A DNA stretch of 64,000 bases from Cyanobium sp. FGCU52 (GTDB lineage Bacteria; Cyanobacteriota; Cyanobacteriia; PCC-6307; Cyanobiaceae). Positions 1,385-64,000 of this stretch are shown here, piece by piece (position 1 is the first letter of the stretch; the number at the start of each line of letters is the position of its first letter). A model generated the notes under the pieces. The model worked only from the letters and a program-made list of their open reading frames with translations. It was not told the DNA's origin and did not search any database. Both the position numbers and the translations under genes were made by a program. The DNA lies in assembly GCA_024958715.1 (NCBI GenBank), contig JANWUS010000063.1, positions 1-64,000 of the forward strand. Direction: 5' to 3'.

Positions 1385-4096
1385 TCAGCCCAACGCCGCG
1401 CCGAACTGCTCCCGCAACTGCTGCTCCGCCTGGCGCAGGGCCCCAACCAGCGCCGTGCCGTCACGCCCGCCGGCCTGGGCGAGGTTGGGCCGGCCGCCGC
1501 CACCGCCGCCGCACGCCTTGGCCACGCCGCCGATGAACTTGCCCGCCTGCTGGCCGGCGGCGATCACCGCTTTGCCAAAGGCGGCCACCAGAATCACCTT
1601 GCCGAGATCACTCGGATCGGGCAAGCCGCCCAGCACCACGGCGGCGCCCTCGCCCAGCTGATCGGCCAGCCCCAGGGCGGCGCTCTGCAGCCCCGCTCCA
1701 TCCACACCATCGAGGCGGGCCACCAGCAGCTGGAAATCGCCAACCCGTTCAGCCTTGTCCGCCAGCGCCGCAGCCTTCGCCAGCGCCAGTTCGCCGCGGG
1801 CCGCCGCCAGCGCCTTGCCGCTGGCCTTGAGTTCGTCCTGCAGCGCTGCCACGCGATCGACGATTTCGCCGGGCTGGGCCTTGAAGCGCTCGCCCAGCTG
1901 CTTCACCACCGCGTCCCGCTCATTGAGATAGGCCAGCACCGCCGGACCTGCCACCGCCTCAATGCGGCGGATGCCCGCCGCCACGCCGCTCTCGCTGACG
2001 ATCTTGAACAGGCCGATCTCGGCGGTGTTGGCCACGTGGGTGCCGCCGCACAGCTCCATCGACACGCCCGGCACATCCACCACCCGCACCACGTCGGCGT
2101 ACTTCTCGCCGAACATCGCCACGGCGCCGGCGGCCTTGGCCTTCTCGATCGCCATCTCCTGAACCTCGAGGGTGTGGGCCTCGGCGATCCAGCCGTTGAT
2201 CAGGGCCTCGATCTGCTCCAGCTCGGCTGAGGTCACGGCGCGGGGGCAGTGGAAGTCGAAGCGCAGGCGATCGAAATCCACCAGTGAGCCCGCCTGGCCG
2301 ATGCCCGGATCCACCACCTGCTTGAGCGCCGCCTGCAGCAGGTGGGTGGCCGTGTGGTTGGCCTGGGCGCGGCGGCGGCAGGCGGCATCCACCCGGGCGG
2401 TGAGCAGGTCGCCTACCGCCACGCAGCCCCGCTCGATCCGGCCGCTGTGCACGAACACCGAGCGATTGCGGCTCACCCCCTCGATACTCACGATCACACC
2501 CGCATCCACGCTGGTCTGGTCGCCGCCGCCCAGCAGCACACCGCGGTCGCCCACCTGGCCACCGCCCTCGCCATAGAAAGGGGTGGAATCGAGCACCAGC
2601 TGCACCTGATCACCGGCGCCGGCCAGGGTGGCCGGCTCGCCATTCACCACCAGGGCCAGCACACAACTGGGGTGTTCGAGAGCCTCGTAGCCCTTGAAAG
2701 TCGTGGCCGCCGCCGTGGCCGCCACCTGATCAATGGCCTCCTGAAGGGTGAGGTCGATGCTCACGGCAGCAGCCTTGGCCCGCTGGCGCTGCTCCTCCAT
2801 CGCCAGCTCGAAGCCGGCCACATCCACCGTGAGGCCATGCTCCTCGGCGATCTCCTCGGTGAGCTCCAGCGGGAAGCCGTAGGTATCGTAGAGCTCGAAG
2901 GCCTGGGCGCCGCTGATCTGGCTGGGTTGGCTGGCGAGCACGTCGGCCAGCAGCTTCTCGCCCCGCTCCAGGGTCTCCAGGAAGCGGGCCTCCTCGCGCT
3001 CCAGCTCCGCCAGGATCACGGCCCGGCGCTCCAGCAGCTGCGGATAGGCCTCGCCCATCAGCGCGATCGACGCCTCGCCCATCGCCGCCAGGAAGGGTTT
3101 GTCGATACCCAGCAGCCGTCCGTGGCGCACCACGCGGCGCAGCAGGCGCCGCAGGATGTAGCCGCGGCCGAGGTTGCTGGCGGTGACGCCGTCGCCGATC
3201 AGCTGGGTGACGGCGCGGCTGTGGTCGCCGATCACCTTGAGGCTGGTTTTCCCTTTCTCATCCAGACCTCGGTATTCCACCCCGGCCAGACCCGCCGCCG
3301 CCTCGATCAGCGGATAGATCAGGTCGGTTTCGTAGTTGTTCGGCACTCCCTGCAGGATCTGGGCCATGCGCTCGAGGCCCATGCCGGTGTCGATGTTGCG
3401 CGCCGCCAGGGGCGTGAGCGTGCCCTGGGCGTCGCGGTTGTACTGCATGAACACCAGGTTGTAGAACTCGATGAAACGCGTGTCGTCCTCGAGGTCGATG
3501 GCGTCGTCGCCGAGCTCGGGCCTGAAGTCGTAGTAGATCTCCGAGCAGGGTCCGCAGGGGCCGGTGGGGCCGGAGGCCCAGAAGTTGTCGGCCTCATCCA
3601 TGCGGATGATCCGCTTCGGGTTCACGCCCACCGTGTCGCGCCAGATCGCCTCGGCCTCGTCGTCCTCGCGGAAGACGCTCACCACCAGGTTCTCGGGCGC
3701 CAGGCCGAACACCCCGGTGCTCAGCTCCCAGGCCCAGGCGATCGCCTGCTCCTTGAAGTAATCGCCGAAGGAGAAGTTGCCGAGCATCTCGAAGAAGGTG
3801 TGATGCCGCGCCGTGCGGCCCACGTTCTCGATGTCGTTGGTGCGGATGCACTTCTGGCTGCTGGTGGCCCGCGGCGCCGGCCGCTCCGCCTGACCCAAAA
3901 ACACCGGCTTGAACGGCAGCATCCCGGCGATCGTGAGCAGAACCGTGGGGTCGTCGGGGATCAGGGAGGCACTCGGCATCGGCCGGTGGCCCCGCTGCTC
4001 GTAGAAGCGCAGGAAGGCCGCCCGGATCTCGGCGCCGCTGCGGGGGCGGGGGCTCGCCGGGCCGTCGGTGGGAGCGGGGGAGGGGGCGGCGGCCAT
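1385..4096 (-). CDS. alaS: Alanine--tRNA ligase
   Basis: Translation has AlaRS hallmarks ([68 protein letters not shown]). The 2221-aa ORF over-extends upstream; ATG at 4096 (or 4132) is the plausible start. Confidence 0.97.
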
Positions 4097-4173
4097 GGAC
4101 CCGGGGCGAGGAGCGTGTCGTTCTGAGGGCATGATCGCCCAGAGGCTGACGCCGCCTGCGAACGATCCGGGCG

Positions 4174-4680
4174 ATGATCCACCGGACCGCCCCCCGCCGC
4201 GCGTTGCGCCCCCCCACCGCCTTCGCCCCTGTCCTGCGACCCGCCGACCCCGACGTGACGGATCGGGCGCGGCTGCGCTGGCGGTCGCTGAGCTGGGCCC
4301 TGCTCGCCGCCGCCGTGGCCGGCGGCCTCTCCCTGCTCGGCGCCGCAACCCCATGGGCCGGCCCGACCGCCGGCCTGGAATCGGCCCTGCGCGCCGCCGG
4401 CTGCGGCTTCTTCTATGGCCTGCTCGCCTTCCACCTGCAGCGGGTCGATCCCGACGACGGCCATCTGCAGGCGGGTCTGGTGGGGGCGGTCTGCGGCATC
4501 CGCAGCCTCGGCGCCCCCCTGACCCTGCCGGCGTCCAGCCCGCTGGAGACGCCCCTGTCCTGGCTGGAGGCGGCGCTGCTGGCGCTAGGGCAGCAGTGGC
4601 TGCCCCTGTGGCTGCCCCTGGTCGGGGCCGCCTTCGCCCTGCCACTGGCCGTGCGGCGGTGGCCGGCGCTGCGGCCCTGA
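4174..4680 (+). CDS. Hypothetical membrane protein
   Basis: 168-aa ORF with hydrophobic segments, between divergent alaS and the SNF2 helicase gene. Confidence 0.55.
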
Positions 4681-53606: not shown

Positions 53607-55933
53607 ATGGATCAGGCCACCCACAACCGGATCGTGAGCTTCCTGTGGGGCATCGCCGACGATGTGCTGCGCGATCTGTTCCGGCGCGGCAAGTATCCGG
53701 ATGTGATCCTGCCGATGTGTGTACTGCGTCGGCTGGATGCGGTGCTGGAGCCCACCAAGCCGAAGGTGCTGGAGACGAAAGCCCGCCTGGATGCGGCGGA
53801 GATCAAGGAGCAGGCGGGGGCGTTATGCAAGGCAGCGGGTCAGGCCTTTTACAACATCTCGCCCTTTGTGCTGCGCGATCTCGCCAGCCGGGGCAGCGAA
53901 CAGAAACTACGGGCCGATTTCGAAGCGTATCTGGAGGGGTTTTCAGAGAATGTGCAAGATATCATGGAGAATTTCAAATTCCGCAACCATATTCCCACCC
54001 TTTCCCGCTCCGATTCGCTCGGCACGCTGATCAGCAAGTTTCTCGATCCCCAGGTGGATCTGAGCCCGGCCGCGCTCGACAACCACGCCATGGGCACGGT
54101 GTTCGAAGAGCTGGTGCGCCGCTTCAATGAGGAGAACAACGAGGAGGCGGGTGAGCACTGGACACCGCGCGATGCCGTGCGGTTGATGACCACATTGATG
54201 TTTCGCCCGATTGCCGCCTTGGTCAAGAGCGGCACCTATCTGCTCTACGACGACGCCTGCGGCACCGGCGGAATGCTCACCGTGGCGGACGAAACCCTGC
54301 GCGAGCTGGCGGCGGCCTTTGGGCAGGAGGTGGTGACCCGCCTCTATGGCCAGGAGATCAACCCGGAAACCTATGCGGTCTGCAAGGCCGACATGCTACT
54401 CAAAGGGGAGGGCGAACACGCCGACACGATCATGGGCGGCGCCGAGTGGTCAACCTTGTCGCACGATGCCTTTGCGGGGATGGTGTTTGATTTCATGCTC
54501 TCCAACCCGCCCTATGGCAAGAGCTGGAAGAAGGATCTGGAGGTGATGGGCGGCAAGAAGGAGATGAAGGATCCGCGCTTCCAGGTGAACCATCGCGGCG
54601 AGGTGTTGTCGCTGGTGACGCGCTCCAGCGACGGCCAGATGCTGTTCCTGGCCAACATGGCCAGCAAGATGAACCACGAGACACCCCTGGGCAGCCGCAT
54701 CGCCCAGGTGCATAACGGCTCCTCGCTGTTCACCGGCGACGCGGGATCGGGCGAGAGCAACATCCGCCGCTGGCTGTTTGAAAACGACTGGGTGGAGGCG
54801 ATCGTGGCCCTGCCCCTCAATCTCTTCTACAACACGGGGATTGCCACCTATGTGTGGCTGCTGAGCAACCGCAAAACGCCCGAACGGCAGGGCAAGGTGC
54901 AGCTGATCGATGCCAGCGGCTGGTTCGAGCCCTTGCGCAAGAACCAGGGCAAAAATAACTGCATCATGGGCCCGGCCGACATCGAGCGGGTGATGGCGGC
55001 CTATGACGCCATGGAGGAGAGCGACCACGCCAAGGTGTTTGCCAATGAAGCCTTCGGCTATTGGAAGGTGAGCGTGGAGCGCCCATTGCGCCTGCACAGC
55101 CGCATCACCCAGGCGGCGATCGAGGCGCTGCGCAGCGCGTCGGGCGACCGGGAGATTCGTGAAACGTTCTGGGTCGACTACGGCGAGGCGCTGCTGAACA
55201 ACTTCGCCAACCTGAGACCGGAGCTGGAGCAGCGGTTGCGGGAGTGGAGCGCCGGCGATGACGCCGCGGAGGACAACGACGAGGGCGCCGACGACGAGGG
55301 CGACGAAAAGCCCAGCGGCAAGGGCGGCATCCCCGAGAAGCGCCGCAAGAAGCTGCTGGATCCAGCCACCTGGATGCGCGATGCCCAGCTGGCGGCGGCG
55401 GCCGAAGCGCTGCGGGAGCTGTTCGACGAGGAGCTGTCGACGACCACAACCACTTCCGCAGCGAGGTGCAGAACGCCCTCAAGCTGCAGGGCCTCAAGCT
55501 CAGCGCCGTGGACCTGAAGTTGCTGCTCAAGCAGGTGAGCTGGCGCGAGGAGAGCGCCCCGCCGGTGATCGCCAAGGTGCACAAGGGCGGCCGGGTGGCG
55601 GCCGATCCCCTGCGCGGCCTGTTCCCGCTGGAGCTGGGCGGCAAGGCCTGCGTAGTGGAGTACGAACCCGATGCCGACCTGCGCGACAGCGAGCAGATCC
55701 CGCTGCTGGAGGAGGGCGGCATCGAGGCCTTCCTGCAGCGGGAAGTGCTGCCCTACACCCCCGATGCCTGGTTCAACCCCGAGGCCACCAAGGTGGGCTA
55801 CGAGGTGAGCTTCACCCGCCACTTCTACAAACCCAAGCCCCTGCGCAGCCTCGCCGAGATCGCCGCCGACATCCGCGCCATCGAGGCGGAAGCCGAGGGC
55901 CTGCTCGATGGGCTGCTGGTGGGGGCGGGGTGA
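53607..55933 (+). pseudogene. hsdM: Type I restriction-modification system M subunit, frameshifted near 55437
   Basis: 'DDACGTGGMLTVAD' (motif I) and 'LSNPPYGKSWKKDLE' (motif IV). Main frame ends at 55517, but HsdM-like C-terminus 'DDHNHFRSEVQNALKLQGLKLSAVDLKLLLKQVSWREESAPPVI...' continues in the frame of ORF 55466-55933. Confidence 0.85.
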
Positions 55934-56012: not shown

Positions 56013-57218
56013 GTGGCGCCCATGCGCAAGGCTGAGCGATGCATGGCTGAAGCCCAGGCCCACCGCGCCGGTCGTTACCGCACCCAGCCCACGGGATATC
56101 GAGCCTTCCTGCCGGCGCCTCTGCCGCCCGATCCGCCCCTGCGGCTGGAGGGGGAGTTGCAACTGCTGCTGTCCCAGGCCGACCGTGCCCTGGGCCGGCT
56201 GGACGGATCGGTGGAAACGCTGCCCAATCCCGATCTGTTCGTGCTGATGTACGTGCGCAAGGAGGCGGTGCTCTCCAGCCAGATCGAAGGCACCCAAAGC
56301 TCCCTGCAGGATCTGCTGGCGGCGGAGGCCCAGCTGTTCGGCGCCGACAGCCTGCCCAAGGATGTAGATGAGGTGGTGAATTACGTGCGGGCGATGAAGC
56401 ACGGTCTGGCGCGGCTGGAGAGCTTGCCGGTATCGATGCGGCTGATTGGCGAGATCCACGCGGAGCTGCTGCAGGGGGTGCGCGGCAGCCGGTTGACGCC
56501 GGGCGAGCTACGCCGCAGCCAGAACTGGATCGGCCCCAGCGGTTGCAGCCTGGCGACGGCCACCTTCGTGCCGCCTCCACCGGAGGAGCTGCCGGAGGCG
56601 CTGGGGGCCCTGGAGCGGTTTCTGCATCAGCAGGATGCGATCCCGGCGCTGATCAAAATCGGCCTGGCCCATGCGCAGTTCGAAACGATCCACCCGTATC
56701 TCGATGGCAACGGCCGGGTGGGGCGGCTTTTGATCACGTTTCTACTCACGGAGCGGGGCATCCTGCAGAAGCCGGTGTTGTATCTCTCCCATTACTTCAA
56801 GCAGCAACGCCAGGCCTACTACGACCATCTACAGGCGGTGCGGGAGGCGGGCAACTGGGAGGGCTGGCTGGCCTTCTTTCTGCGGGGCGTGGCGGTGGTG
56901 AGCCAGGAGGCCAGCGGCACGGCCCGGCGGATCCTGGCGATGCGGGAGGAGCACCGGGCGCAGATCACCATCCACCTCGGCCGCGCCGCCGGCAATGGCC
57001 ATCGCGTGCTGGAAAGCCTGTACGACCGGCCGATCGTGAGCGTGCAGGCCATCCAGGAGTTGATCGGCGGCACCTATGCGGCCGCCAACAGCCTGGTGGC
57101 ACGGCTGGAGCAGCTGGGCATCCTGCGCGAGATGACCGGCCAGAAGCGCAACCGCCGCTTCTGCTATCAGCCCTACGTGGAGCTGTTCGGCGACTCGCCC
57201 CAGGAGGTGCTGCCGTGA
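56013..57218 (+). CDS. fic: Fic family AMP-transferase-like protein
   Basis: 'HPYLDGNGRVGR' Fic motif and N-terminal inhibitory motif 'SSQIEGTQ' ((S/T)xxxE(G/N)); start GTG 56013 or a downstream ATG. Confidence 0.92.
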   Translation: MAPMRKAERCMAEAQAHRAGRYRTQPTGYRAFLPAPLPPDPPLRLEGELQLLLSQADRALGRLDGSVETLPNPDLFVLMYVRKEAVLSSQIEGTQSSLQDLLAAEAQLFGADSLPKDVDEVVNYVRAMKHGLARLESLPVSMRLIGEIHAELLQGVRGSRLTPGELRRSQNWIGPSGCSLATATFVPPPPEELPEALGALERFLHQQDAIPALIKIGLAHAQFETIHPYLDGNGRVGRLLITFLLTERGILQKPVLYLSHYFKQQRQAYYDHLQAVREAGNWEGWLAFFLRGVAVVSQEASGTARRILAMREEHRAQITIHLGRAAGNGHRVLESLYDRPIVSVQAIQELIGGTYAAANSLVARLEQLGILREMTGQKRNRRFCYQPYVELFGDSPQEVLP

Positions 57219-58606
57219 TCGAGGATCTGAAGCCTTATCCGCAGTACAAGGATTCAGGACTGCCGTGGCTGGGGGAGGTGCCGGCGCATTGGGAGATCAG
57301 ACGCAATGGCGGGTTGTTCCAGCAGCGCAATGATTCGGGCGCTAACGAGTTGCCGATTCTGGAGGTTTCGCTGCGAACGGGTGTGCGGGTGCGCGACTTC
57401 GCCACATCCAAGCGCAAGCAGGTGATGACCGACCGCTCGAAGTACAAGCGAGCTGGACAGGGTGACCTTGTCTACAACATGATGCGCATGTGGCAGGGAG
57501 CCGCAGGGATCGCACCCGTGAGCGGCTTGATCAGCCCGGCTTATGTTGTGTGCAGAGCCCTGCCTGGCATTGACTCTAGCTATTTCTCCAGGCTCTTCAA
57601 AACCGACGACTATCTGGCGGAGATTGATGCCGCATCGAGGGGCATCGTCAAAGATAGAAATCGACTGTATTGGGATCAGTTCAAACAAATCTGCAGCCCC
57701 TTGCCACCAGCCAGCGAACAAGTCGCCATCGCCCGCTTCCTCACCTGGGCCACCAACCGCCTGGACCGCGCCATCGGAGCCAAGCGCCGCATCATCGCCC
57801 TGCTGCAGGAGCAGAAGCAGGCCATCATCCATCGCGCCGTGACGCGGGGGCTGGATCCCGCCGTGCCGCTCAAGGATTCGGGGATTCCCTGGCTGGGGGA
57901 GATTCCGGAGCATTGGGAGGTGAGGCGTGCCAAGTATCTTTTCCGTGAAGTTGATCGCCGCTCACAGACAGGTACAGAAACCCATCTTGCCATGAGCCAA
58001 AGGCTTGGCCTCGTGCCAAGCAGCATGGTGCAGAGCACTCTTCGTTCGCAGTCTTATGCAGGCGGCAAACTCTGCAGCTCGGGCGACCTCGTTCTCAATC
58101 GTCTGAAAGCCCACTTGGGTGTTTTTGCTGTCGCCAAGCAGGATGGAGTCATCAGCCCGGACTACACAGTGCTCCGCGAGCAGGCATTGGCTCACGCCGA
58201 TTACTACGCGTGCATTCTGAAGTCGCCTGGATGCCGTGGAGAACTGCAGACGCGAGCGAAAGGGATAGTTGAGGGCTTTTGGCGCCTGTATACAGACGAC
58301 TTTTACGAAATCCGCCTGCCCACTCCACCAATAGATGAGCAGCTGCTGATAATGGATTTAGCCTCGCAACAAACGCGAGGTCAAGAGACAGCCATTTCCC
58401 GACTTGAATCGGAAATCACCCTCCTGCGCGAATACCGCACCCGCCTGATTGCCGATGTGGTGACGGGCAAGCTGGATGTGCGGGAGGTGGCGAAGGGGTT
58501 GCCGGAGGATGTAGAGCCGCCAATCCAGTCGGATGCCGCTGGCTACGATGGAGACGAAGCAGAGGATGATTCCGACTCAGATCCGATCGATACCGAGGAG
58601 GTTTGA
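57215..58606 (+). CDS. hsdS: Type I restriction-modification system S (specificity) subunit
   Basis: Two half-subunit repeats 'YKDSGLPWLGEVPAHWEIRR' and 'LKDSGIPWLGEIPEHWEVRR' and typical helices ('ATNRLDRAIGAKRRIIALLQEQKQAIIHRAVTRGLD', 'REYRTRLIADVVTGKLDVRE'); GTG start overlaps the fic stop. Confidence 0.94.
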   Translation: MIEDLKPYPQYKDSGLPWLGEVPAHWEIRRNGGLFQQRNDSGANELPILEVSLRTGVRVRDFATSKRKQVMTDRSKYKRAGQGDLVYNMMRMWQGAAGIAPVSGLISPAYVVCRALPGIDSSYFSRLFKTDDYLAEIDAASRGIVKDRNRLYWDQFKQICSPLPPASEQVAIARFLTWATNRLDRAIGAKRRIIALLQEQKQAIIHRAVTRGLDPAVPLKDSGIPWLGEIPEHWEVRRAKYLFREVDRRSQTGTETHLAMSQRLGLVPSSMVQSTLRSQSYAGGKLCSSGDLVLNRLKAHLGVFAVAKQDGVISPDYTVLREQALAHADYYACILKSPGCRGELQTRAKGIVEGFWRLYTDDFYEIRLPTPPIDEQLLIMDLASQQTRGQETAISRLESEITLLREYRTRLIADVVTGKLDVREVAKGLPEDVEPPIQSDAAGYDGDEAEDDSDSDPIDTEEV

Positions 58607-58607
58607 C

Positions 58608-59807
58608 ATGACAGCTGAAGCCAAAGCGCCTTTCATTAAGCGGATAGAGCCAACCAATTTTCTCTCATTTGGCTCTGATAACACTGGGATTGATCTTCTG
58701 CCGCTGAATGTGCTGATCGGTCCGAATGGATCAGGTAAGTCCAACCTGATCGAGGCAGTGTCACTGCTGCGTGCGGCACCTCGCGACCGCGGCCATGACC
58801 TCCGCGATGTGACGCTCAAGGGGGGCGGTGTAGAGGAGTGGATCTGGAAAGGAAGCCCACAGGGCGTGGCCCAGATCGACTGGCTAGTCAATGACCCGAA
58901 GGCGCCGAAACCCCTGCGACATGCTCTCGTCTTTCATGCCTTGGGGCAAGGCTTCGCCTTAAAGGATGAACGAGTGGAGTACAGCGAGCCCCAACCTGGC
59001 CAACAGACGCCGTACTTTTTCTATCGCTACCAAGAAGGCAGGCCGGTGGTGAACGTACGCGATCAGGGGCAGCGGCAACTAGCCCATGACAGCATCGAAC
59101 CAGATCGCTCAATCTTGGCCCAACGGCGTGATCCAGACAGCTATCCAGAGCTTGCCTGGTTGGCCAGCCATTACGAACGTATTCGTATCTATAGAGAATG
59201 GGAGTTTGGCCGGAATGCAACCTTCCGCGCTCCCCAGCGAGCTGATCAACCCAACGACGTACTCGCGGAAGATTTCTCCAACCTTGGGCTTTTCCTCAAT
59301 CGCCTCAAGACCCGTCATCCAACTGCCGCGCGCGCAATTCTTGATGGTCTGACCGATCTCTATGACGGGCTGACTGAGTTCACTGTGCTAGTCGAAGGTG
59401 GTACGGTTCAGGTGTTTTTTATGGAAGGAGAGTTTGCGATCCCTGCCACCCGCCTCTCCGATGGCACGCTTCGCTATCTCTGCCTGCTGGCCATCCTCTG
59501 CGAGTCTAATCCACCACCGCTGGTCTGCATCGAAGAGCCCGAACTGGGACTGCACCCGGATGTTTTGCCAAGGCTAGCGGATCACCTGTTAGCAGCCTCA
59601 CAGCGAACCCAGTTAATCGTCACCACTCACTCCGATATTCTGGTGGATGCGTTGAGCGAACAACCGGAATCGGTTGTCGTCTGCGAAAAGCATCATGGCG
59701 CCACATCCATGACACGCTTGGCGACTGATGAGCTGCAGGCATGGCTGGAGAAGTATCGCCTGGGTGAGCTATGGATCAGTGGCGAGCTGGGGGGAACCCG
59801 CTGGTGA
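58608..59807 (+). CDS. AAA-family (AAA15/AAA21, OLD-like) ATPase
   Basis: 'NVLIGPNGSGKSNLIEAVSLLRAAP' Walker A, 'LSDGTLRYLCLLAIL' signature, 'VCIEEPELGLHPDVLPRLADHL' Walker B, 'IVTTHSDILVDAL'. Confidence 0.92.
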   Translation: MTAEAKAPFIKRIEPTNFLSFGSDNTGIDLLPLNVLIGPNGSGKSNLIEAVSLLRAAPRDRGHDLRDVTLKGGGVEEWIWKGSPQGVAQIDWLVNDPKAPKPLRHALVFHALGQGFALKDERVEYSEPQPGQQTPYFFYRYQEGRPVVNVRDQGQRQLAHDSIEPDRSILAQRRDPDSYPELAWLASHYERIRIYREWEFGRNATFRAPQRADQPNDVLAEDFSNLGLFLNRLKTRHPTAARAILDGLTDLYDGLTEFTVLVEGGTVQVFFMEGEFAIPATRLSDGTLRYLCLLAILCESNPPPLVCIEEPELGLHPDVLPRLADHLLAASQRTQLIVTTHSDILVDALSEQPESVVVCEKHHGATSMTRLATDELQAWLEKYRLGELWISGELGGTRW

Positions 59808-60418
59808 GTGCCCATCTCTACATCGAAGGCGGCGGCAACTCCAAGGAGGAGAAGATCCGTTGCCGTGAAGCCTTCTCCACCCTGCTCAAGAGCCAGGGCT
59901 TCAGTGGGCGCATGCCGCGGCTCACAGCCTGCGGTGGCCGTGGCGCTGCTTTCGACGACTTCAAAACCGCTCACACCACCGCAAAACCTGGCCATTTCAT
60001 TGGCCTGCTGATCGACAGCGAAGATCCACTGGCCATGCCCATGGAACCCCAGGAACAACAAACCTGGGAGCATCTCAGGCAACGAGATGATTGGGCACAG
60101 CCCAACGGTGCCACCGATGATCAGGTGCTGTTCATGACCACCTGCATGGAGACCTGGATCGCGGCTGATCGAGAAACCCTGCGGGCACACTACGGGCAAG
60201 GCCTCAATGAAAACCAACTCCCACCAACCACATCCCTCGAATCACGGCACAGACACACTGTTCAAGACTCCTTGGAGAAGGCCACATCAGCCTGCTCAAA
60301 CGCCTATCGAAAAGGCAAACGCTCGCATGAAGTCCTGGGCAAACTGAAGCCAGCCGTGTTGGCAGCCCTGCTCCCCAGCTTCGCTCGGGCCATGGCCATT
60401 CTTGAACAGAAGCTTTAA
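59804..60418 (+). CDS. DUF4276 (TOPRIM-like) family protein
   Basis: 'LYIEGGGNSKEEKIRCREAF', 'FIGLLIDSEDP', 'TCMETWIAADRETLRAHYG', 'RKGKRSHEVLGKL' are DUF4276-like; GTG start overlaps the ATPase stop. Confidence 0.82.
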   Translation: MSAHLYIEGGGNSKEEKIRCREAFSTLLKSQGFSGRMPRLTACGGRGAAFDDFKTAHTTAKPGHFIGLLIDSEDPLAMPMEPQEQQTWEHLRQRDDWAQPNGATDDQVLFMTTCMETWIAADRETLRAHYGQGLNENQLPPTTSLESRHRHTVQDSLEKATSACSNAYRKGKRSHEVLGKLKPAVLAALLPSFARAMAILEQKL

Positions 60419-60470: not shown

Positions 60471-60695
60471 AATTATCTGCATGCCTGTCTCTGCTACGTG
60501 ACCCGCAAGGCCATGACCAACACCAGCCTGCGCACTCGCATGGGAGTTGAAGCCCGCAACCGCGCCACGGTGTCGCGCGTCATCCGCAAGGCCGTCGAAG
60601 CCGGGGCCATCGTGCCCGCCGATCCGGAGGCAGCCCCAAAACTCAGGCGCTACCTGCCGATCTGGGCGGCGGTCGGACCCAACAAGCAGCCATGA
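60471..60695 (+). pseudogene. C-terminal remnant of an AlbA/RecG-like ATP-binding protein
   Basis: Frame reads 'NYLHACLCYVTRKAMTNTSLRTRMGVEARNRATVSRVIRKAVEAGAIVPADPEAAPKLRRYLPIWA', the C-terminal winged-helix pattern of divergent-AAA4/AlbA_2 ATP-binding proteins; an in-frame TGA at 60450 and no upstream body. Confidence 0.7.
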
Positions 60696-61086: not shown

Positions 61087-64000
61087 ATGCCCACCGACAC
61101 CAGCGAGCAGGGCCTGGAAGCGCTGATCACCCGGGCGATGACCGGGCGCACCCACCTGCTGGAGCCGCCCCACCAGCCCACGCCATCCGCCACCGCGGTG
61201 AGTGGCGGCAGCGGTTGGTTGCTGGGGGATCCGCGCCACTACGACCGCAACTTCTGCCTGGATCTGGTGCAGCTGCAGGGCTTCCTGGAAGCCACCCAGC
61301 CAGTCGTAGCTGAAGCCGTTCAGATCAGCGTGGATGGGCCCACACGCCGGCAATTCCTCACCCGCCTGGAGAAGCAGATCGGCCAGCACGGCGTGGTGGA
61401 GGTGCTGCGCAAGGGCATTCGCCATGGCCCCCACGAGATTCAGCTCTTCTACGGCACCCCCTCCCCTGGCAATGCCCGCGCCGCGGAGCTGTTTGCCCAG
61501 AACCGCTTCAGCCTCACCCGCCAGCTCTCCTACAGCTCCGACCAGACCCGCCGCGCTCTTGATCTGGCCTTGTTCGTGAACGGCCTGCCGGTGGCCACGT
61601 TTGAACTCAAGAACAACCTCACCTGCCAGAACGTCCGTCACGCCATTGCGCAATACCAACAGGATCGCGATCCCCGCGAGCCCCTGTTCGCCTTCGCCCG
61701 CTGCCTGGTGCACTTCGCCGTGGATGAGCAGGAGGTGCACTTCTGCACCCATCTCAAGGGGAAAGACTCGGAGTTTCTCCCCTTCAACAAGGGCACCAGC
61801 AGCGGCGGCTCAGGCAATCCACCCAACCCCGCCGGCCTGGCCACGGACTACCTCTGGGAGCAGATCCTCACCCCCGCCAGCCTCACCGACATCCTGGAGA
61901 ACTATGCCCAGGTGGTGGAGAAGAAGCATCCCCGCAGCGGCCGCAAAACCTACAAGCAGATCTTCCCCCGCTACCACCAGCTTGATGTGGTGCGCTCGCT
62001 GCTGGCTGATGTGGCCGCCCATGGCGCCGGCCGCTGTTACCTGGCCCAGCATTCAGCCGGCAGCGGCAAGAGCAACTCGATCACCTGGCTGACGCACCAG
62101 GTGGGCGATGTGACCCACAACGGCGAGCGGGTGTTTGACACCGTGATCGTGGTCACCGACCGCCGCAACCTCGATGAACAGCTGCGCGGCAACATCCTTG
62201 ATTTCATGCAGGTGGGGGCCACCGTCGGCGCCGTGACCGGCCGGGGCAGCTCCAAGACCCAACAGCTGCGCCAGTTCCTCGAAGCGGGCAAGAAGATCAT
62301 CATCTGCACCCTGCAGACCTTCCCCGAACTCTGCCGCCAGCTCGACAACGCACCGCCTGGACGGCGCTATGCGGTGATCATCGACGAAGCCCACTCCAGC
62401 CAGGGCAGCAAGGCTTCCGCCGCCCTCAACCAGTCGCTGGCTGACGACGCCCAGCCCCTGGCTGATGACGCCGATATGGAAGACGTTGTGAATGCGGTGA
62501 TCGAGGAGCGAATGCGCAGCCGCAAGCTGCTCGCCAATGCCAGCTATTTCGCCTTCACCGCCACGGCCAAGGCAAAAACGCTGGAACTGTTCGGCACACC
62601 CCTGCCGCCCGATGGCGAGGGCAAGATCGGCCGGCGGCCATTTCATGTGTACACGATGAAGCAGGCGATCGAGGAGAAGTTCATCCTCAACGTGCTGCAG
62701 TACTACATGCCGGTGAGCAGTTACTGCCGGCTGGCAAAAACGATCGAGGCTGATCCGCTGTTCGACAGCAAGCGTGCCCGCGGCAAGCTGCGGCGCTATG
62801 TGGAAAGCCATTCGAGAGCCATCCGCGACAAGGCGGCAATCATGGTGGATCATTTCCTCGATGATGTGCTGCCCCTGCGGGAGATGAAGGGCGAGGCCCG
62901 GGCGATCGTGGTGACGGGCGGCATTGAGCGGGCGGTGCAGTATTTCGGCGCCGTTCGCACCTATCTGGCGGAACGGCGTAGCCCCTTCCTGCCGATCGTG
63001 GCCTTCTCCGGCGAGCACGACTTTGGCGACGGGCCAGTCAGCGAAGCCTCCCTCAATGGCTTCCCCAGCAGCGAGATCACCAGCCGCATCCAGGAGGATC
63101 CCTATCGCTTCCTGATCTGTGCCGACAAGTTTCAGACCGGCTACGACGAGCCGCTGCTGCAGGCCATGTACGTGGATAAGGCCTTGGGCGGCATCCAGGC
63201 GGTGCAAACGCTTTCGCGCCTCAACCGCGCCGCCACCGGCAAGAGCAAGGTGTTTGTGCTCGATTTCCAGGACAACGCCGCCGCCGTGGAAGCCGCCTTC
63301 GCCGACTACTACAAAACCACCCTGCTCAGCCAGGAAACCGACCCCAACAAGCTCCACGACCTCCGCGATGACCTCGACAAGCTGGGCGTGTACACCTGGC
63401 CTCTGGTGGAGGAGTTCGTGGCCTTGTTTCTCAGCAGCAGCGATCGTGAGGCGCTGCAACCACTCCTCAATCACTGCCGCCAGATCTACAGCGAACAGCT
63501 CAACGAAGACGACCAGGTGGCCTTCAAGGGCAAGGCCAAGGCCTTCGTGCGCAGCTACGACTTCCTGGCCACGATCCTGCCGTACGCCAACCCTGAATGG
63601 GAGAAGCTCTCGATCTTTCTCACCCTGCTGGTGCGGGCTCTACCGGCTCCTGAAGAAGACGATCTCACCAAGGGCATGCTGGAGCTGATCGACCTCGACA
63701 GCTACCGGATCGACAGAAAGCCACAACAGTCCATTCCACTGCCGGATGACGACGCCAGCCTCGATCCGGCGCCGGTTTCAGGCGGTGGCTTCAGGCCCGA
63801 GCCCGAGCTGGATCCCCTGTCGGTGATTGTCACCAACTTCAACGACCAGTTCGGCACCAGCTTCAACGACGAAGACCGCATCGGTCGCCTGATCCGCGAC
63901 GAGATCGCCCCCCAGGTGGCCCAGGATCAGCGCTACCGCAACGCCCGCGCCAACACCCCCAACACCGCCGGGATCGAACTCCAAGCCTCCCTCAACCGCG
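61087..64000 (+). CDS. hsdR: Type I restriction-modification system R subunit (3' end beyond window)
   Basis: Frame from ATG 61087: 'RQFLTRLEKQIGQHGVVEVLRKGIRHGPHEIQLFYGTPS', 'ALFVNGLPVATFELKN', 'LAQHSAGSGKSNSITWL', 'AVIIDEAHSSQGSKASAAL'; open to the window end. Confidence 0.96.
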   Translation, partial: MPTDTSEQGLEALITRAMTGRTHLLEPPHQPTPSATAVSGGSGWLLGDPRHYDRNFCLDLVQLQGFLEATQPVVAEAVQISVDGPTRRQFLTRLEKQIGQHGVVEVLRKGIRHGPHEIQLFYGTPSPGNARAAELFAQNRFSLTRQLSYSSDQTRRALDLALFVNGLPVATFELKNNLTCQNVRHAIAQYQQDRDPREPLFAFARCLVHFAVDEQEVHFCTHLKGKDSEFLPFNKGTSSGGSGNPPNPAGLATDYLWEQILTPASLTDILENYAQVVEKKHPRSGRKTYKQIFPRYHQLDVVRSLLADVAAHGAGRCYLAQHSAGSGKSNSITWLTHQVGDVTHNGERVFDTVIVVTDRRNLDEQLRGNILDFMQVGATVGAVTGRGSSKTQQLRQFLEAGKKIIICTLQTFPELCRQLDNAPPGRRYAVIIDEAHSSQGSKASAALNQSLADDAQPLADDADMEDVVNAVIEERMRSRKLLANASYFAFTATAKAKTLELFGTPLPPDGEGKIGRRPFHVYTMKQAIEEKFILNVLQYYMPVSSYCRLAKTIEADPLFDSKRARGKLRRYVESHSRAIRDKAAIMVDHFLDDVLPLREMKGEARAIVVTGGIERAVQYFGAVRTYLAERRSPFLPIVAFSGEHDFGDGPVSEASLNGFPSSEITSRIQEDPYRFLICADKFQTGYDEPLLQAMYVDKALGGIQAVQTLSRLNRAATGKSKVFVLDFQDNAAAVEAAFADYYKTTLLSQETDPNKLHDLRDDLDKLGVYTWPLVEEFVALFLSSSDREALQPLLNHCRQIYSEQLNEDDQVAFKGKAKAFVRSYDFLATILPYANPEWEKLSIFLTLLVRALPAPEEDDLTKGMLELIDLDSYRIDRKPQQSIPLPDDDASLDPAPVSGGGFRPEPELDPLSVIVTNFNDQFGTSFNDEDRIGRLIRDEIAPQVAQDQRYRNARANTPNTAGIELQASLNR

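Follow-up and report, generated by a model that had tools for sequence, protein, structure and literature searches.

In the PARIS and AbiL systems a separate TOPRIM protein acts as a toxic effector that is restrained by an ATPase partner (PMC10440598; PMC12409363), and in the AriA/AriB mechanism of PARIS it is AriA that senses Ocr (PMC12409363). RloA/RloB and AbiLi/AbiLii similarly combine an ATPase with a TOPRIM_OLD toxin, a small protein carrying an E...DxD...ExW motif, and are linked to type I restriction–modification (RM) loci (PMC10440598). A further class of candidates, termed HEC (Hma-embedded candidate), arose from 'guilt-by-embedding' (Payne et al., 2024, preprint 10.1101/2024.01.29.577857, as described in PMC12988326 and PMC12111858), and anti-phage activity has been described for two members, HEC-04 and HEC-06 (PMC12111858; PMC12988326). 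Type I RM operons can themselves accommodate such cargo. In E. coli, DarTG2 is found between hsdS and hsdR at a site proposed to be a recombination hotspot (the RRDM island), and a pair formed from an AAA-like ATPase and a putative RNA-binding protein has also been reported in this slot (PMC12255303).

The window analysed here is the whole 64,000-nucleotide stretch taken from a 69.1 kb contig of the 3.48 Mb genome of the freshwater cyanobacterium Cyanobium sp. FGCU52, for which the closest named relative at the locus is Cyanobium sp. Cruz-8D1. It contains a type I RM operon in the order hsdM, Fic, hsdS, HEC-01A, HEC-01B, remnant and hsdR, with the following features:

53607..55933, + strand: hsdM, type I methyltransferase (HsdM_N, N6_Mtase), with a 1-nt frameshift near 55440
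56013..57218, + strand: Fic/SoFic protein, cargo of the hsdM–hsdS slot (Fic_N E=5e-29, Fic E=7e-19, PADLOC SoFic E=3e-119)
57215..58606, + strand: hsdS, specificity subunit, directly 5' of HEC-01A, frame open (PADLOC Specificity_I E=2.4e-100, Methylase_S)
58608..59807, + strand: HEC-01A, ABC-type AAA_21 ATPase, 399 aa, putative sensor/regulator (Pfam, PADLOC, AF2)
58719..58742, + strand: Walker A motif GPNGSGKS, residues 38-45 of HEC-01A (sequence)
59804..59807, + strand: GTGA, stop of HEC-01A and start of HEC-01B, translational coupling (sequence)
59804..60418, + strand: HEC-01B, DUF4276 protein, 204 aa, putative TOPRIM-like nuclease effector (Pfam, PADLOC, AF2)
60477..60695, + strand: 3' remnant of an earlier slot occupant of AlbA_2/HATPase_c_4 type (match to L107)
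61087..64000, + strand: hsdR, restriction subunit, extending past the window (HSDR_N, SWI2_SNF2, ResIII)

The start of hsdR at about 61087 was inferred from homologues (MPTDTSEQ...). The hsdM frameshift (1 nt, within 55430-55450) is seen relative to the 83% identical gene of the same-genus locus L102, which is one open frame; the RM system may therefore be inactive, or the assembly may be wrong at this site. Contig C36 (L108; G000:C36) carries, at 1816-3495 and beside other genes, a second, partial hsdR that shares 90% identity with residues 433-992 of the window HsdR.

The HEC-01A frame begins with the ATG at 58608 and ends with the TGA at 59805-59807, while HEC-01B begins with the GTG at 59804 and its stop codon ends at 60418. 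The resulting GTGA overlap is real and evolutionarily conserved: the junction reads TGGTGA in 46 of the 48 homologous pairs checked, and as A terminates in the codons TGG TGA the start of B is the GTG contained within them. The terminal Trp of HEC-01A is invariant in the homologue alignment. Fic and hsdS overlap through the same four bases. An initial annotation of this DNA had placed two frames with a GTGA overlap between hsdS and hsdR, and both its coordinates and its gene order were right.

Both proteins match established profiles over their full length. HEC-01A matches Pfam AAA_21 (E=8.5e-37) and AAA_15 (E=1.3e-16) and the PADLOC HEC-01A model PDLC04177 (E=5.8e-169, 560 bits, residues 8-399 of 399), and HEC-01B matches Pfam DUF4276 (E=1.8e-12) and the PADLOC HEC-01B model PDLC04201 (E=1.3e-65, 219 bits). 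With the ATPase present and its partner directly adjacent through a 4-base overlap, the Cyanobium pair is the already catalogued candidate anti-phage system HEC-01 in its known arrangement, and not a new kind of system. The suggestion in the initial annotation of a distinct, perhaps uncharacterised effector is thus superseded by the profile matches of both proteins. As the best models are only two among many HEC-01 models, the window pair represents one sub-lineage. Like PADLOC HEC-01, it lies within another defence locus as two neighbouring, coupled genes; the host that gave HEC-01 its name is Hma, whereas the host in the window is a type I RM locus. A literature search for HEC-01 returned a single relevant mention and no experimental test, and one for 'DUF4276' returned no paper.

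HEC-01A contains a Walker A motif, an ABC signature (LSDGT), a Walker B motif (LVCIEEPE) and an H-loop (TTHS), and residues G38, N40, G43, K44 and S45 are invariant in 55 homologues. The AF2 prediction (pLDDT 93) gives Foldseek matches to SMC heads, Rad50, PtuA (Septu/retron Ec78) and OLD, with E about 1e-11 to 1e-14, and sequence matches among PDB sequences include AriA, PtuA and OLD. These matches support placing the ATPase in the OLD/PARIS/PtuA/AbiLi group.

As in PARIS, the ABC ATPase and the TOPRIM effector, putative in HEC-01, are separate proteins. HEC-01A matches the PADLOC AriA model (E=4e-35) but scores far higher on HEC-01A, and among PDB sequences it matches AriA only at E=1e-4. 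HEC-01B has no detectable match to the PADLOC AriB model and matches DUF4276 and HEC-01B only, so that the pair does not belong to PARIS. A resemblance to MADS is also observed, as HEC-01A matches mad3 (PADLOC E=3e-23; NCBIfam MAD3 E=2e-25), MAD3 being the ATPase of a methylation-linked system. However, its NCBIfam score is 90 bits against a curated MAD3 cut-off of 420 bits, and HEC-01B has no mad4-type match in PADLOC. OLD classes 1-3 and Gabija require a fused ATPase–TOPRIM protein, whereas here there are two separate genes, and neither a GajB-type helicase nor a retron RT partner adjoins the pair in the ORF list or by Pfam.

The predicted structure of HEC-01B (AF2, pLDDT 95, pTM 0.90) has a (beta-alpha)3-beta layout with a TOPRIM-like order of strands and helices. 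E8 comes after strand 1, the D71xE73 motif after strand 3, and E116, within the sequence METW, after strand 4. Across 22 diverse DUF4276 proteins no residues other than E8, D71 and E116 are fully invariant. The acidic motif is D71-S-E73, with Glu at the second acidic position of the DxD. The predicted protein therefore has the conserved Glu after strand 1, the DxD-like motif after strand 3 and the Rossmann-like core of a TOPRIM domain, and its motif residues occur in the same order as those of RloB (E30/D84xD86/E115, giving E...DxD...ExW).

Comparison with known structures and profiles gives a different picture. A Foldseek search of HEC-01B against PDB and BFVD produced no match at E<=0.001, and searching PDB sequences with the HEC-01B, DUF4276 and RloB profiles by hmmsearch gave only chance-level matches. 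A profile comparison of HEC-01B with distant DUF4276 members gives a match (E=3e-6). Between DUF4276 and RloB, hhalign is not significant (probability 1-7%), although the motif region is aligned in some comparisons. Neither Foldseek nor hhalign thus relates HEC-01B significantly to known TOPRIM proteins, and its assignment as a nuclease rests on motif and predicted topology. HEC-01B is a DUF4276 protein and not an RloB, for which it has no Pfam match, and the pair is therefore not placed in RloA/RloB or AbiL. HEC-01B is likely to be a TOPRIM-like nuclease. Motif and topology bear out a putative TOPRIM-like partner, as had been proposed, whereas the Foldseek searches of PDB and BFVD give no confirmation of TOPRIM geometry and the RloB comparison remains non-significant.

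DUF4276 is found in 31 of the 116 sampled genomes of the class. A scan of species genomes recovered relatives of HEC-01B at 70 loci, with 37-84% identity over the best segment, from Cyanobacteriota, Verrucomicrobiota, Planctomycetota, Chloroflexota, Acidobacteriota, Pseudomonadota, Armatimonadota, methanogenic and ANME archaea and other groups. Pairs of both genes are spread over some 10 phyla, archaea among them. A relative of A is directly upstream of B at about 62 of the 70 loci, several others being cut by contig ends. No relatives of B were found in the plasmid or phage records of the collections. In another cyanobacterial MAG (L073, 10001-10230; L077, G001:C6) the middle part of HEC-01B is deleted and A is intact.

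Most HEC-01 loci are solitary, flanked mainly by metabolic or housekeeping genes. Comparing 88 immediate neighbours of solitary pairs with 88 genes more than 5 kb away revealed no defence-gene enrichment, with few matches to defence models. Enrichment in defence islands is therefore not a general property of these pairs, nor is dependence on RM. The initial annotation had made its defence reading depend on such enrichment, which is in part missing from the family as a whole and holds for the RM-embedded clade.

Type I RM genes or remnants related to the window hsdM, hsdS and hsdR are present at about 19 of the 70 loci. Intact RM loci read hsdM-(cargo)-hsdS-A-B-hsdR (for example L007, L009, L012 and L017). 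The cargo of the hsdM–hsdS slot across loci is Fic, a YhcG nuclease, an AlbA_2 ATPase or a GmrSD-type protein, and in L031 the interval is without cargo. Verrucomicrobiota and Pseudomonadota also show the order hsdS-A-B-hsdR, and Acidobacteriota and Planctomycetota show hsdS-A-B; recurring as it does in several phyla, the arrangement is not due to chance. In the tree of A all 16 rows labelled as RM-embedded, the window included, fall in one 26-row clade, the fork of which has moderate support (88/81), and the RM label needs 8 changes compared with 14.5 when labels are shuffled.

C-terminal fragments of hsdS lie just 5' of A (L006, L014, L048 and L054) or just 3' of B (L013), which suggests exchange via recombination in the conserved 3' end of hsdS. 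Within the RM clade the distances of A do not correlate significantly with those of HsdM, HsdR or HsdS (Mantel r 0.16, 0.27 and 0.03, respectively), and A has thus not simply been inherited along with a single RM lineage; at this sample size strict co-inheritance with the Hsd subunits is unsupported. RM-embedded and solitary pairs are told apart by few positions in A and by none in B.

Turnover of the slot is seen among seven same-genus loci (hsdR family at least 59% identical, window included). In L102, where hsdM, Fic and hsdR are 83-86% identical to those of the window, the hsdS–hsdR slot contains an AlbA_2/HATPase_c_4 ATPase. In L105 and L106 it contains DarT with a macro-domain DarG-like gene, and in L103 it contains HEC-01, with a macro-domain gene upstream. 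The window remnant has no Pfam match on its own, and over 65 aa is 77% identical to the 3' end of the L107 HATPase_c_4 gene, which sits upstream of hsdR; L104 gives a shorter match. With this AlbA_2-type remnant behind HEC-01, the window looks like an AlbA_2-type slot that was later occupied by HEC-01. Within one RM lineage, HEC-01, Schlafen/AlbA_2 ATPases and DarTG thus replace one another in the hsdS–hsdR interval, which serves as an exchange slot. It is the same operon slot as that of DarTG2 in the RRDM island (PMC12255303), the cargo being unrelated. The position between hsd genes and the variable content among relatives uphold the view of the pair as a candidate two-gene defence module carried as cargo within a type I RM locus.

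Other cargo was also observed. In L105 (7101-8644) and L106 (7397-8940) the hsdM–hsdS slot is filled by conserved cargo of two genes, with products of 388 aa and 127 aa, that has no Pfam match and may be undescribed. The genome of the window has a further type I locus on contig C59 (L110; G000:C59, 54-9751), which comprises part of hsdM and hsdS followed by three ATPase-led pairs behind this single hsdS: a HEC-01A-like ATPase with a small CEDSG...ExW protein, a HEC-01A/HEC-01B pair of another subfamily, and Septu PtuA/PtuB up to the contig end. The small protein of the first pair (3604-4215), coupled to its ATPase, has E-D-S-G / D-x-N / ExW motifs like those of DUF4276 and no match in Pfam or PADLOC.

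Taken as HEC-01 in an exchangeable hsdS–hsdR slot, the pair is a candidate defence system, and we lean slightly towards it being an abortive-infection unit made of two parts. The ABC ATPase HEC-01A, which probably oligomerizes, would sense a phage cue. In the resting state it would hold or restrain HEC-01B, a putative TOPRIM-like metal-dependent nuclease. Once triggered, HEC-01B could cleave an essential nucleic acid, either tRNA, as AriB does, or DNA, as OLD/GajA do, and this cleavage would stop the infected cell. Such a restrained-effector model is transferred by analogy from AriA/AriB (PMC12409363) and from AAA-neutralized TOPRIM toxins (PMC10440598). Embedding in the RM operon may provide shared expression and shared horizontal transfer without the functions being obligatorily tied.

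It is also conceivable that A and B form a constitutively targeting DNA nuclease complex, similar to OLD, Gabija or Septu, that cuts invading DNA directly and not through abortive infection. The structural neighbours of A (SMC heads, Rad50, PtuA and OLD by Foldseek) are consistent with this, as is the cutting of DNA by class 1/2 OLD enzymes (PMC10568477). We consider it unlikely, as HEC-01 resembles PARIS and AbiL in being made of two distinct proteins, and in those systems the ATPase restrains a toxic TOPRIM protein (PMC10440598; PMC12409363), and the fold of B is unconfirmed by Foldseek. The solitary, sporadic insertions among housekeeping genes, away from defence islands, would instead fit a selfish toxin–antitoxin-like addiction unit that maintains itself and the RM operon, with phage defence secondary or absent, and AAA-neutralized TOPRIM toxins do act as toxin–antitoxin pairs (PMC10440598). 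The recurrent RM embedding beside DarTG, Fic, AlbA_2 and Septu is typical of defence cargo, however, making an addiction unit distinctly unlikely.

HEC-01 might instead guard the surrounding RM system in the manner of PARIS or PrrC, killing the cell when it detects either an Hsd complex that has been inhibited or the anti-restriction proteins of a phage. The sensing of Ocr by AriA (PMC12409363) offers a precedent, and the single clade that holds all 16 RM-embedded rows, together with the slot directly behind hsdS in most RM-embedded pairs, points the same way. By contrast, the distances of A in this clade do not follow those of HsdM, HsdR or HsdS, few positions of A and none of B separate RM-embedded from solitary pairs, most homologues have no RM system nearby, and in the window hsdM is frameshifted, yet A and B are intact. 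The sensing of anti-restriction proteins that the initial annotation had raised may be envisaged by analogy with PARIS and Ocr, but we hold such a guard to be quite improbable. A related proposal confines the tie to the RM-embedded clade, where HEC-01 would serve as a second line by keeping watch on the Hsd complex, or on phage inhibitors of it, and would come into play once restriction is blocked, and adds that DUF4276 is a diverged nuclease fold unrepresented in public structure libraries; taken jointly, these two propositions are very improbable.

Residues suitable for mutation are K44 of HEC-01A and E8, D71, E73 and E116 of HEC-01B. What is added here to the description of HEC-01 is the slot turnover seen in sister genomes, the single RM-embedded clade, the conserved GTG coupling and caution over the TOPRIM assignment. 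The analysis documents a catalogued, little-studied candidate system in cyanobacteria and archaea and, if the pair works, DUF4276 would acquire a biochemical role.
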